Source of the DNA: Chloroflexota bacterium
Lineage (GTDB): Bacteria > Chloroflexota > Anaerolineae > Promineifilales > Promineifilaceae
NCBI GenBank assembly: GCA_018004935.1
Contig: JAGNBF010000008.1
Location: forward strand, 8,052-72,051
Length of the DNA: 64,000 nt
Reading direction: 5' to 3'
In this document: positions 25,705 to 60,780 of the stretch, one piece after another
Numbering within the stretch: the first letter of the stretch is position 1
How the letters are laid out: the number at the start of each line of letters is the position of its first letter
Translations under genes and position numbers: made by a program
The notes under the pieces: model-generated
Seen by the model: the letters and a program-made list of their open reading frames with translations, nothing else
Told to the model about the DNA's origin: nothing
Database searches by the model: none

Positions 25705-25914
25705 ATGGCCCTGCGGTATACCAAGAGGGATGAAAACAGCGAGTATGCGAGTGGGCGTTCCTACCCGCTACTCGCATACTCGCAAACTCATTTTCGTAGG
25801 AGTTCCCCATGAGCCTACAGCACACCAAGAGGGATGAAAATCTGTAGGACGATTTGGTAAATCGTCCACTGGGCGATTTACCAAATCGCCCTACATTTTC
25901 GTAGGAGGTATAAA
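25705..25914 (+). promoter_or_regulatory. Tandem leader: TKRDEN frames, two hairpins and two ribosome sites before a membrane-protein gene
   Basis: In order there is an ATG at 25705 whose frame reads MALRYTKRDEN. A perfect hairpin at about 25738-25786 follows (GCGAGTATGCGAGT with its complement), then a TTTTCGTAGGAG ribosome site. The mini-ORF at 25809-25847 is next, with its stop inside a family A hairpin (25844-25894), and a second TTTTCGTAGGAGG site precedes the ATG at 25915. The first copy uses a different hairpin after the same peptide start. The layout resembles a translation-coupled leader or attenuator, but it is also a mobile repeat, so function is unproven. Confidence 0.5.
25809..25847 (+). 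CDS. Recurrent 12-codon mini-ORF, peptide MSLQHTKRDENL
   Basis: TAGGAG lies six bases before the ATG, and the stop TAG is the first part of the following hairpin arm. Four other short copies share the pattern M-x-L-x-x-TKRDENL (26545, and minus strand 33498, 33717, 60755). Codons for Leu (CTA, CTT), Arg (AGG, CGG) and the last Leu (CTG, TTG) differ between copies without changing the residue. This may reflect selection on the peptide, or simple drift in a repeat. Confidence 0.45.
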   Translation: MSLQHTKRDENL

Positions 25915-26271
25915 ATGCGTATAGACCGTATTAAGGAAGCCGAACTGAAGAAACGGAAAGGCATTACCATCAAGACGATTATTCAACTGCTCTGGTTGAG
26001 TATTTCTTTTGTGATAGCCTATTTTCTGACTGCCTACATTTTTGCCAATACCAGTTTTAACCTGTCATTTATTTACGCCAACTTTTTTATCCCTCCCATC
26101 GTGCCCCAATGGGTTGTTCAAGGTGCTTTTATTTTTTTGATAGTGGTAATCATGCAGTTCATTTTTGCGATTGGCTTCGCCCTGGGTAGCCCTGAAGGGC
26201 GGCGGCGTACCGGCAAACCACGCATTGATTCCCGTGATCCTGATCCTTTTGATGAACATAGACCCTATTAG
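25915..26271 (+). CDS. Small two-helix membrane protein, unknown function
   Basis: The 118-residue protein has a basic N-terminus (1-18), a membrane helix at about 22-46 and a second at about 65-92. A polar tail rich in Arg, Pro and Asp follows (GRRRTGKPRIDSRDPDPF). I do not recognise a family. The ATG is preceded by GTAGGAGG at good spacing, and that site is the end of the repeat-derived leader at 25705-25914. Confidence 0.75.
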   Translation: MRIDRIKEAELKKRKGITIKTIIQLLWLSISFVIAYFLTAYIFANTSFNLSFIYANFFIPPIVPQWVVQGAFIFLIVVIMQFIFAIGFALGSPEGRRRTGKPRIDSRDPDPFDEHRPY

Positions 26272-26284
26272 CTTAGGTCTTACG

Positions 26285-26400
26285 GGGTCGCTTGAGCTGG
26301 TCTCCTGACCGTGCCACCTAACCCTGCCCCCAGAGGCAGAGAACTTTTTCTCGTGTCATTTTTCGCGGGCGGACGCCCGCGAAAAATGACACGAATGAGT
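26285..26400. repeat. Family D palindrome joined to a family B hairpin
   Basis: GAGCTGGTCTCCTGACCGTG is a family D core. Family B follows, with a perfect 20-base-pair stem at 26352-26392 pairing CGTGTCATTTTTCGCGGGCG with its complement. The right flank GGGGGACGGG continues to about 26440. Confidence 0.85.
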
Positions 26401-26532: not shown

Positions 26533-26648
26533 CAGGAGTTCCCCATGGGCCTTTGGCGCACCAAGCGGGATGAAAATTTGTAGGACGATTTTGTAAATCG
26601 TCCACCGGGCGATTTACAAAATCGCCCTACATTTCTCAGGAGAAAAAC
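26533..26648 (+). promoter_or_regulatory. Leader: mini-ORF MGLWRTKRDENL, hairpin, ribosome site, before the AhpD-like gene
   Basis: CAGGAG (26533-26538) precedes the ATG at 26545 by six bases. The 12-codon frame stops at 26581-26583, inside the left arm of a family A hairpin (26580-26630), and a second CAGGAG at 26637 serves the ATG at 26649. Order and spacing match the leader before 25915. The hairpin arms are GACGATTTTGTAAATCG and the complement, a compensated variant of the 25844 stem. Confidence 0.5.
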
Positions 26649-27236
26649 ATGGCCGATCTCATAATCACCGCTGATGAACGTATTGCCTGGTTAACGATCA
26701 AACCCGAAGAAGAGTTAGACCCCAGTTTTCGCAAACTCTTTGCCAAAGCGCGGGAAACGCTGGGTTTTGTGCCTAATGTATTTGTAGGGTACATGGCGCG
26801 GCCGCAACATTTCAGCCTGTGGTTTAACCATTTCCGCGAATTAACTCTCGGCGATTCCCAACTGAGCCGTGCCGAACGAGAAATGATCGCCGTCGTGGTT
26901 TCTTCTCTTAACCATTGCCTCTACTGCCTCGTCAGTCACGGGGCCGATCTGCGCCTTTCCCTCGAAGACCCAATCCTGGCCGACCGCATCACCCTGGACT
27001 ATCGCCGTGCTGGCCTGGATGCACGCACCCGTGCCATGCTCGACTACGCCGCGAAAATCACTACCAACCCGGTCGAATGTGATGAAAGCGATATCCAACA
27101 CTTGCGTGGGTTTGGCTTTAACGATGAAGCCATCTTTGACATCGCCGAAATTGCCGCCATGTATAACTTTACCAATCGGCTGGCGTCAGCGACCGGAATG
27201 CTCCCTAACCGGGAGTATCACAACCTGGGACGTTAA
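26649..27236 (+). CDS. AhpD-like peroxidase-related protein (CMD family)
   Basis: The 195-residue protein belongs to the carboxymuconolactone decarboxylase/AhpD superfamily. The redox motif is C90-LY-C93-LVS-H97 in NHCLYCLVSHG, on the helix after ERE(M)IAVVVSS. The shape fits the uncharacterised peroxidase-related group, whose members likely use the Cys pair for peroxide or thiol chemistry. No AhpC partner is nearby. The gene has the TKRDENL leader just upstream, like the membrane protein gene before it. Confidence 0.9.
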   Translation: MADLIITADERIAWLTIKPEEELDPSFRKLFAKARETLGFVPNVFVGYMARPQHFSLWFNHFRELTLGDSQLSRAEREMIAVVVSSLNHCLYCLVSHGADLRLSLEDPILADRITLDYRRAGLDARTRAMLDYAAKITTNPVECDESDIQHLRGFGFNDEAIFDIAEIAAMYNFTNRLASATGMLPNREYHNLGR

Positions 27237-32494: not shown

Positions 32495-33394
32495 TCAGGC
32501 GTGGATTTTTTGGCGAGCGGCCATAAACTGTTCTCTGGTAAGGTCTAATCCACGGGCAATACGGCGGATTTGTTCACTTTCTTCATGGAATAGACCTCGG
32601 TCAGCGTTGGCGATGGCGAAGAGGGCATCCAGAAAGGTTGTGCGCTCACTTTCGTTGGTAACGGCGTTGAAACCAGCAATCAGTTCGTAATAATCTAGCC
32701 CTTCCTGGATTTCGCTGAGGGCGACTTCCGTGACAAAGGTCGCGGCCGCGTGGTCTACTTGCCAGTTTTGTTGCAAGACGTTTACCATTGCCGTTTGCTC
32801 TTCTGGAGCAATATGCTGGTCTACATGGGCCACTCGGGCTAACAAACCTCCGGCCAGACTGAGTTTACGCAGATTGGCCTCACTTAGATTTAACTCTTTT
32901 TGTGCCAGTCGTTCGCATACCCGGTAATAGACGCGGTTATGGACAAATTCGTCAAATTGGGCCTCACGATTGGGTATAGTTGCGGCCGCGGTCTGCCGCT
33001 GGTGTATGGCCTGTTGCACCAACCGCCCTAGCCGACCTAAAACGGTTACATCGGCCTGATCAATCGCCTGGAGCATTTCGGTGATGGCTGTTGCTTCTGT
33101 GGGAGTGACAGTGCCATCGGCTTTGATGACATCTTGTAAGGCTTCATGGATTTGCTGTTTATCGTCTTCGCGAACCAGTCGGCTGGCTAAGTCCTGAACC
33201 AGTCGGCCTCTTTCTGCCTCACCTACGGGCGAACCCAGGTACATTTCTAGCCTGGCCCATTCATGGGCGCTGATTTGTAAGGGTGAGAGCCACTGTTTCA
33301 GACTTTCATATTCAGTTTTGCTGATAGAACCGTCTATCCACGCGGCCGCGATCATTACTTTTGCTAATGCTAATACCAGTTCTTTGTCTGTCAT
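32495..33394 (-). CDS. TerB-like protein with two TerB domains
   Basis: The 299-residue protein looks like two copies of the helical TerB/tellurite-resistance fold, about 1-120 and 170-299. Each has the acidic metal-site style: AWIDGSISKTEYE and KADGTVTPTEA in the first, and AHVDQHIAPEEQTA and ANADRGLFHEESEQ in the second. TerB-like domains occur in stress and membrane-associated complexes, and the exact role here is unknown. The start is preceded by CAGGAGAGG, which ends a doubled repeat leader. No other ter gene is present. Confidence 0.85.
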   Translation of the reverse strand: MTDKELVLALAKVMIAAAWIDGSISKTEYESLKQWLSPLQISAHEWARLEMYLGSPVGEAERGRLVQDLASRLVREDDKQQIHEALQDVIKADGTVTPTEATAITEMLQAIDQADVTVLGRLGRLVQQAIHQRQTAAATIPNREAQFDEFVHNRVYYRVCERLAQKELNLSEANLRKLSLAGGLLARVAHVDQHIAPEEQTAMVNVLQQNWQVDHAAATFVTEVALSEIQEGLDYYELIAGFNAVTNESERTTFLDALFAIANADRGLFHEESEQIRRIARGLDLTREQFMAARQKIHA

Positions 33395-33459
33395 GCCCGC
33401 CTCTCCTGCGTAAATGTAGGGCGATTTGGCAAATCGCCCGGACGATTTACCAAATCGTC

Positions 33460-33498
33460 CTACAGATTTTCATCCCTCTTGGTGTGCCAAAGGCACAT
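33460..33498 (-). CDS. Mini-ORF, peptide MCLWHTKRDENL
   Basis: It is a 12-codon frame with TAGGAG six bases upstream and TAG inside the next hairpin. It matches the copy at 33679-33717 except for codon 2. The TerB-like gene starts 66 bases after the stop. Expression is unproven. Confidence 0.4.
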   Translation of the reverse strand: MCLWHTKRDENL

Positions 33499-33678
33499 GG
33501 GGAACTCCTACGAAAATAGCCATGGATAGTGGAAACACGGATAGGAAGAAACACGGATGGGAATGAAAATGGTGGCGTTATTTTCATCCCTCTTGGTGTA
33601 CGTTCCGTCCACGTGAAACTCCTACGAAAATGTAGGGCGATTTTGTAAATCGCCCGGTGGACGATTTACAAAATCGTC

Positions 33679-33717
33679 CTACAGATTTTCATCCCTCTTG
33701 GTGTGCCAAAGGCTCAT
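33679..33717 (-). CDS. Mini-ORF, peptide MSLWHTKRDENL
   Basis: It has the same layout as 33460-33498: ribosome site, 12 codons, and a stop in the hairpin arm. The following hairpin (33632-33682) uses the TTTTGTAAA variant, while the copy nearer the gene uses TTTGGTAAA/TTTGCCAAA. Expression is unproven. Confidence 0.4.
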   Translation of the reverse strand: MSLWHTKRDENL

Positions 33718-33825
33718 GGGGAACTCCTACGAAAATAGCCACTGATAATGGGAACATGGATAAAAACCTTGCCCGATTATACGTTGTTTGGGAGCAAATT
33801 TCTGGTTAATTTTTGCGGCGTAACC

Positions 33826-60659: not shown

Positions 60660-60663
60660 CTCC

Positions 60664-60780
60664 TACGAAAATGTAGGGCGATTTGGCAAATCGCCCGGAC
60701 GATTTACCAAATCGTCCTACAAATTTTCATCCCTCTTGGTGCGCCGTAGGCCCATGGGGAACTCCTACGAAAATGTAGGG
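60664..60780 (-). repeat. TKRDENL mini-ORF element without a downstream gene
   Basis: On the minus strand the mini-ORF 60755-60717 encodes MGLRRTKRDENL, after TAGGAG. Its stop is in the hairpin at 60720-60673, and a second TTTTCGTAGGAG follows at about 60668-60662. The next gene on that strand is not near, since 60659 is the end of a plus-strand gene. So this copy is not a leader here. Confidence 0.6.

Follow-up and report, generated by a model that had tools for sequence, protein, structure and literature searches.

A putative mobile element of Promineifilaceae that homes to Shine-Dalgarno sequences and may restore them

Leader peptides and attenuators combine a short open reading frame, equipped with a Shine-Dalgarno (SD) sequence, with a stop codon inside a hairpin and a gene downstream. 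A layout of this kind recurs in a 64,000-nt stretch of a Chloroflexota genome of the family Promineifilaceae, hereafter the window, where a preliminary description read it as a possible leader peptide system or mobile expression element. Several described families of short repeats offer closer parallels. The PATEs of Haloquadratum are too short to encode a transposase, lack terminal inverted repeats, and carry subterminal palindromes and a short conserved terminal oligonucleotide around heterogeneous interiors; they are attacked by SMR-A repeats, a second small-repeat class that enters their palindromes (PMC3119063). In IS200/IS605 elements, guide bases at the feet of hairpins determine which short flanking sequence is the target and which bases terminate the right end (PMC6006769). 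REP and REPIN sequences, associated with RAYT/TnpAREP, form hundreds of intergenic hairpin copies, some of them tagged with GTAG (PMC3116915; PMC6006769; PMC3733652). In Beggiatoaceae, TAACTGA repeats stand in fixed orientation directly upstream of many start codons (PMC4679880). Bacterial MITEs of the DDE type are likewise short, non-autonomous and dispersed.

The repeated unit described here is probably a non-coding, non-autonomous mobile element of about 100-115 nt that homes to SD sequences and restores them, with an architecture closest to that of haloarchaeal PATEs and of IS200/IS605 ends. It shares all the PATE features listed above, including the second small repeat. In contrast to PATEs, its terminal oligonucleotide is AGGAG, a ribosome-binding sequence that is re-supplied to the gene, and no IS605-type transposon sharing its ends was found here. 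It resembles REP and REPIN sequences in its hundreds of intergenic hairpin copies, and GTAG-tagged REPs in that one class of its interiors, the A-type payload, starts with GTAG at the hairpin foot. Unlike these, it lies between SD and start codon in a fixed orientation, with a modular 5' leader and a 3' AGGAG, and no RAYT gene flanked by copies was found here. The fixed orientation before start codons recalls TAACTGA; however, those are 7-nt tandem repeats that overlap the ribosome-binding region and lack SD character, whereas the present element is a structured unit with its own SD, present or absent at orthologous sites. From DDE-type MITEs, it differs by its lack of terminal inverted repeats and its insertion at a fixed sequence, and from leader peptides by the lack of a conserved peptide, codons or frame. 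We know of no described element that lands on an SD sequence and rebuilds it, and a search limited to open-access papers returned nothing comparable to SD-targeted insertion.

Five short frames with the pattern M-x-L-x-x-TKRDENL-stop had been reported in the window, starting at 25809 (+), 26545 (+), 33717 (-), 33498 (-) and 60755 (-). All five are present, each starting 6 nt 3' of AGGAG and with its TAG inside the 5' arm of an A-type hairpin. In three cases a second AGGAG and a gene come next, as described. The list is nevertheless incomplete, since a core with another payload (25720), a GTG-start unit (33612) and a variant (2657-2699) lie in the window as well. The window has seven matches to the core, whereas shuffled sequence would yield 0.01, which excludes chance, and no Rfam covariance model matches the window above its gathering score.

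The array before the gene at 25915-26271 (+; 118 aa, no Pfam hit) consists of two units, first C and then A, both on the plus strand. Unit 1 (25709-25802) has a degenerate left end, its left limit being approximate, followed by the core ACCAAGAGGGATGAAAA (25720-25736), a C-type payload (GCGAGTATGCGAGT...ACTCGCATACTCGC) and the right end ATTTTCGTAGGAG (25790-25802). The AGGAG of this right end (25798-25802) is shared, serving also as the left ribosome-type site of unit 2. The latter (25803-25907, 105 nt) begins with TTCCCC and comprises the ATG at 25809, a small hairpin (25811-25823), the core (25824-25840), an A-type hairpin payload (25841-25894) and a second copy of the right end ATTTTCGTAGGAG (25895-25907), whose AGGAG (25903-25907) is the ribosome site of the gene. 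The mini-ORF contained in this unit, MSLQHTKRDENL-stop (25809-25847, +), is incidental and shows no coding selection.

A single unit (26539-26642, +) lies behind an AGGAG at 26534-26538 and contains an ATG (26545), a core (26560-26576), an A-type payload and the right end ATTTCTCAGGAG (26631-26642); the CMD-family gene that follows (26649-27236, +; 195 aa) uses the element's AGGAG. On the minus strand, a three-unit array (33403-33728) carries payloads in the order A-B-A, with mini-ORF starts at 33717 (ATG), 33612 (GTG) and 33498 (ATG), and the frame of the GTG-start unit runs through 34 codons. Its right end ATTTACGCAGGAG (33415-33403) stands before a TerB-domain gene of 299 aa located directly 3' of the array (32495-33394, -). 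The unit with the mini-ORF start at 60755 (60660-60766, -) has a right end at 60672-60660 with no gene start after it, and a diverged unit (MNTPRTKLNENN..., 2657-2766, +) has a B-type payload and no recognisable right end. Separately, a perfect inverted repeat surrounds CGCGGGCG...CGCCCGCG at 26351-26394 of the window, and a similar palindrome, GCCGTTTTTCGCGGGCG...CGCGAAAAACGGC, occurs three times in another locus of the genome (e.g., L117:51-79), constituting a further dispersed palindrome family.

Copies extend throughout the genome. The exact 17-nt core is present 170 times in the whole 8 Mb, a 43-nt leader pattern with at most three mismatches 311 times, and the unit junction TTTTCGYAGGAGTTYCYCATG matches 449 places. 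The 234 units extracted from 1.1 Mb of the genome, which form 99 arrays with between 1 and 10 members each, reveal a common plan: AGGAG, 5-6 nt usually ending in ATG, a small hairpin, a ACCAMGATRAATGAAAA-like core, a variable stem-forming payload, and ATTTTCGNAGGAG. Typically, AGGAG is followed by TTCCCC-ATG, a stem-loop of about 13 nt (e.g., GTGCC-TTT-GGCAC or GAGC-GGGGT-GCTC), the core ACCAAGAGGGATGAAAA, the payload and the right end ATTTTCGYAGGAG. In the small hairpin, the two arms covary (GGGC/GCCC, CGGC/GCCG, GTGC/GCAC and GAGC/GCTC, as well as CCC/GGG in a genome of another family). The element ends, TTTCCATGGG... and ...TTTTCGAAGGAG, are not complementary, so that terminal inverted repeats are absent. 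Palindromes lie close to both ends: the covarying hairpin is within about 10 nt of the left end, and about 8 nt separate the payload stem from the right end. The left boundary is not wholly constant, because a variant at two different loci in two species (L178 and L179) starts at TAGCGCACC (TAGCGC) directly after AGGAG and lacks the 5' 13 nt, including the ATG and the left hairpin arm.

Payloads fall into a few mutually unrelated families, and payload sequence is freely exchanged between units. The A payload is a near-perfect hairpin of 50 nt, B is an ATCCGTG-rich sequence, C a GCGAGT palindrome, and D is TTATCCACAGATT-like. An inverted repeat, ATGAAAAT...ATTTTC, internal to the element, encloses the payload. 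Units with a single payload measure 99-123 nt, too short for a transposase. They stack head-to-tail, with array periods of 102, 105, 114 and 123 nt. Preservation of a reading frame through periods divisible by three was considered and rejected, since other frequent periods (101, 106 and 115 nt) follow hairpin length. A second small repeat (AAAGGGTGTGTTTCAT...) in the payload hairpin repeatedly parts the leader from the right end. This repeat, with inverted ends AAAGGGTGTGTTTCATT...AATGAAACACACCCTTT, sits in the loop region of A-type payloads (GGTAAA/TTTACC), for which sites in the same genome are L042:9605, L057(-):9458, L082:9351, L069:7774 and L116:10118.

Evidence for mobility comes from two sister species, isolates BJ8 and ACE_CHL11, which can be aligned gene by gene. 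Five near-exact pairs of filled and empty sites with conserved flanks were found (L178/L219, L171/L212, L172/L221, L176/L225 and L174/L227). The empty site reads ...AGGAG-ATAAC-ATG, and the filled site reads ...AGGAG, then 112 or 202 nt ending in CGAAGGAG, then ATAAC-ATG. The added length is 202 nt, or two units, in L178/L219 and 112 nt in each of L171/L212, L172/L221 and L176/L225. For example, the empty sequence CGACAATTACACAGGAG-ATAACATG of L172/L221 corresponds to CGACAATTACACAGGAG, the insertion TTTCCATGGGC...TTTTCGAAGGAG, and ATAACATG in the filled site, and in L178/L219 the 202 nt lie at the junction of TTTTCACAGGAG and TTAATTGAGATG. The pairs L171/L212, L176/L225 and L174/L227 are alike, with a few substitutions near the start codons, and L185/L214 shows small differences at its left junction. 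Insertions absent from the sister were found in both species, and near-identical copies occupy non-orthologous sites of the two (e.g., L183/L192, 96/96 nt). The difference between filled and empty sites most plausibly reflects insertion and not precise loss. AGGAG stands on both sides of the element; a longer duplication is excluded, and a 5-bp duplication would look the same as an element-borne AGGAG. In L178, L172 and L176, the right AGGAG is preceded by CGA, which belongs to the element and not to the host; this indicates that the element brings its right end along and that at most AGGAG itself could be duplicated. A length difference between L173 and L180 was rejected as a copy of the element; it is a separate palindromic insertion of about 97 nt (CGTTCAG...CTGAACG, bordered by repeated GAAAC), which BJ8 has and ACE_CHL11 lacks, and represents another young mobile repeat.

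The position of the arrays relative to genes is equally distinctive. Among the 79 arrays whose right end is clear, 53 have, 3-12 nt further on, a same-strand start codon opening an ORF of 60 codons or longer, compared to 277 of 1543 AGGAG sequences (18%) elsewhere in the same DNA; an opposite-strand start lies beside the left end in only 2 of the 79. These orientation statistics, together with the precise empty sites, largely support the mobile-element alternative raised in the preliminary description, and the same-strand enrichment directly before start codons that it had considered is borne out. Among 239 right ends, 152 lead into another unit, 56 into a gene and 31 into neither. About a third of array ends have no recognised start after them, and 14 of the 99 arrays lack a right end that can be recognised. 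The host pentamer immediately before an array is AGGAG in 57 of 87 cases, and the DNA further upstream varies by site. What is recognised as the target is probably a short sequence, and selection probably contributes to the enrichment at genes; part of that enrichment could stem from selection against other insertions.

In the proposed mechanism, the element would enter the gap between SD and start codon, immediately 3' of AGGAG and always in the same orientation, and would itself terminate in CGNAGGAG on its 3' side. After insertion, the old AGGAG would face the 5' end of the element, in most cases with an ATG following after 5-6 nt, and the new AGGAG would face the host gene, such that the ribosome site is kept at a normal distance. 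Because each element ends in the target sequence, later copies can land behind earlier ones, generating head-to-tail arrays. Insertion 3' of AGGAG by an element with a 3' AGGAG of its own would explain where copies sit, why they share one orientation and stack, and how genes tolerate them.

The same leader is found by pattern scan in four other genomes of the family (G008, G017, G026 and G032). Among the named genomes scanned, MAGs of Anaerolineae and of other Chloroflexota also carry it, one being labelled Ardenticatenaceae. A family-wide core, CACCACGATRAATGAAAA, is matched with at most two mismatches in 40 of the family's 52 genomes, representing 21 of its 22 genera, although single-copy matches may be due to chance. 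Outside the family, in a sample of 396 genomes of the class, one genome (G051) carries 13 copies with the plan AGGAG-TAGCC-ATG-CCCGGATGGG-CACCACGATGGATGAAAAT-payload-ATTTTCGAAGGAG. Payloads in relatives (L118-L168 and L169-L198) are made of ATCTGCGTTTATCCGCGTTAATCTGCG-type and CGGTCGGCGGTC-type repeats, which suggests that dispersed repeats of this sort can be carried along inside the element.

Three readings that dispense with an SD-homing element can be weighed against these data. On the leader-peptide reading raised in the preliminary description, TKRDENL is translated from the first ribosome site, and termination within the hairpin might expose the second. Most copies do have an ATG at ideal spacing from AGGAG, A-type units hold the stop in a hairpin arm, and in relatives an ATG lies 5-6 nt after GGAG in 51 of 74 GGAG-bearing copies. 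However, about 30% of copies have no ATG, 14 copies in relatives have ACG, and the leader peptides of relatives (MGAAHHDK*, MGNCPPR*, MGSSAPR* and MPGWAPR*) end after 7-8 codons and are unrelated. B-type units run through 34 codons, and 35 of 222 copies (16%) are out of the TKRDENL frame through changes in hairpin length. Synonymous differences over a preserved peptide had been claimed, yet across 234 copies of the ACC-AAG-AGG-GAT-GAA-AAT core, 38 changes are synonymous and 206 non-synonymous; the synonymous fraction, 16%, is below the neutral expectation of 21%, and changes at codon positions 1, 2 and 3 number 130, 76 and 38, the third changing least. Coding selection on the mini-ORF is rejected accordingly: the TKRDENL peptide is not maintained by selection, and the pattern found is the one named beforehand as speaking against a leader peptide. 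Nor does the second site need a terminating ribosome to open it, as it lies outside the payload stem and is already more accessible in RNA folding than in interior-shuffled controls (unpaired 0.42 vs. 0.31, p = 0.003). A leader peptide is thus very improbable. The common ATG might instead belong to an end that is recognised during movement, or act as a trap for ribosomes at the old SD. The arrays could also be functional regulatory 5' leaders, each an RNA element for a protein or sRNA, spread as a post-transcriptional regulon. Their consistent position and orientation before genes and the covarying hairpin fit such a role, for which a precedent exists in Beggiatoaceae, where TAACTGA repeats precede start codons (PMC4679880). 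It is rendered unlikely by the presence or absence of units at orthologous genes of sister species, the free exchange of payloads, the 31 of 239 right ends before neither gene nor unit, and the lack of an Rfam match in the window. Finally, the repeats might not be mobile at all: intergenic repeats already in place could have multiplied by tandem duplication and by gene conversion among themselves. Slippage could lengthen head-to-tail arrays, where periods of 102, 105 and 114 nt occur, and may account for array length; for dispersed copies, the clean absence of single units from orthologous sites with intact flanks and the near-identical units at unrelated loci contradict this origin, leaving it with very little probability.

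Within the preferred reading of an SD-homing mobile element, no mobilising enzyme was identified. An active Y1 (HUH) single-strand transposase acting on a PATE-like or REP-like element is possible, if doubtful. It would suit the lack of terminal inverted repeats, the subterminal hairpins near both ends, the fixed orientation, the insertion 3' of a fixed short sequence, the heterogeneous interiors, and the second small repeat that enters its palindrome, as in PATEs, IS605-type elements and SMR-A (PMC3119063; PMC6006769). Against it, this genome has no intact Y1 transposase. Its single Y1_Tnp homologue (L117:646-1812, 388 aa) is a response-regulator receiver-like domain fused to a Y1 transposase-like domain, single-copy and family-conserved; its HUH motif is degenerate and not conserved, and it was rejected as the resident mobiliser, the fusion possibly being domesticated. 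No element ends were found beside Y1 genes at 32 loci of relatives, and no RAYT gene flanked by copies was found there or in the genome itself. TnpB is absent from the genome. The two reverse-transcriptase domains present (G000:C4:9097-9738 and C157:19052-19642) have no core near them in either fetched locus (L291 and L292), and insertion resembling that at an integron attC was dropped, as right flanks do not start with TT. By analogy, the IS200/IS605 mode would be a natural engine; because the enzyme was not found, a step in which an IS200/IS605- or PATE-like enzyme acts on single-stranded hairpin ends is proposed only tentatively, and the claim is limited to an element that works like these types, not one identical to them. 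Less probable still is an undescribed element class for which the SD itself is the recognised target, possibly moved by a translation- or mRNA-coupled mechanism without a transposase, and which would supply interchangeable cassettes rebuilding translation starts across the family.

An insertion between ribosome site and start codon should silence the gene. For an element that brings its own ribosome site, the same spot becomes a neutral landing place before very many genes, which explains how several hundred copies are tolerated. Strong-SD short ORFs in such genomes can consequently be by-products of mobile DNA, a warning for their interpretation. The element also provides a clear test system for target choice by short non-autonomous elements, and a natural case in which 5' untranslated regions have been repeatedly rebuilt.
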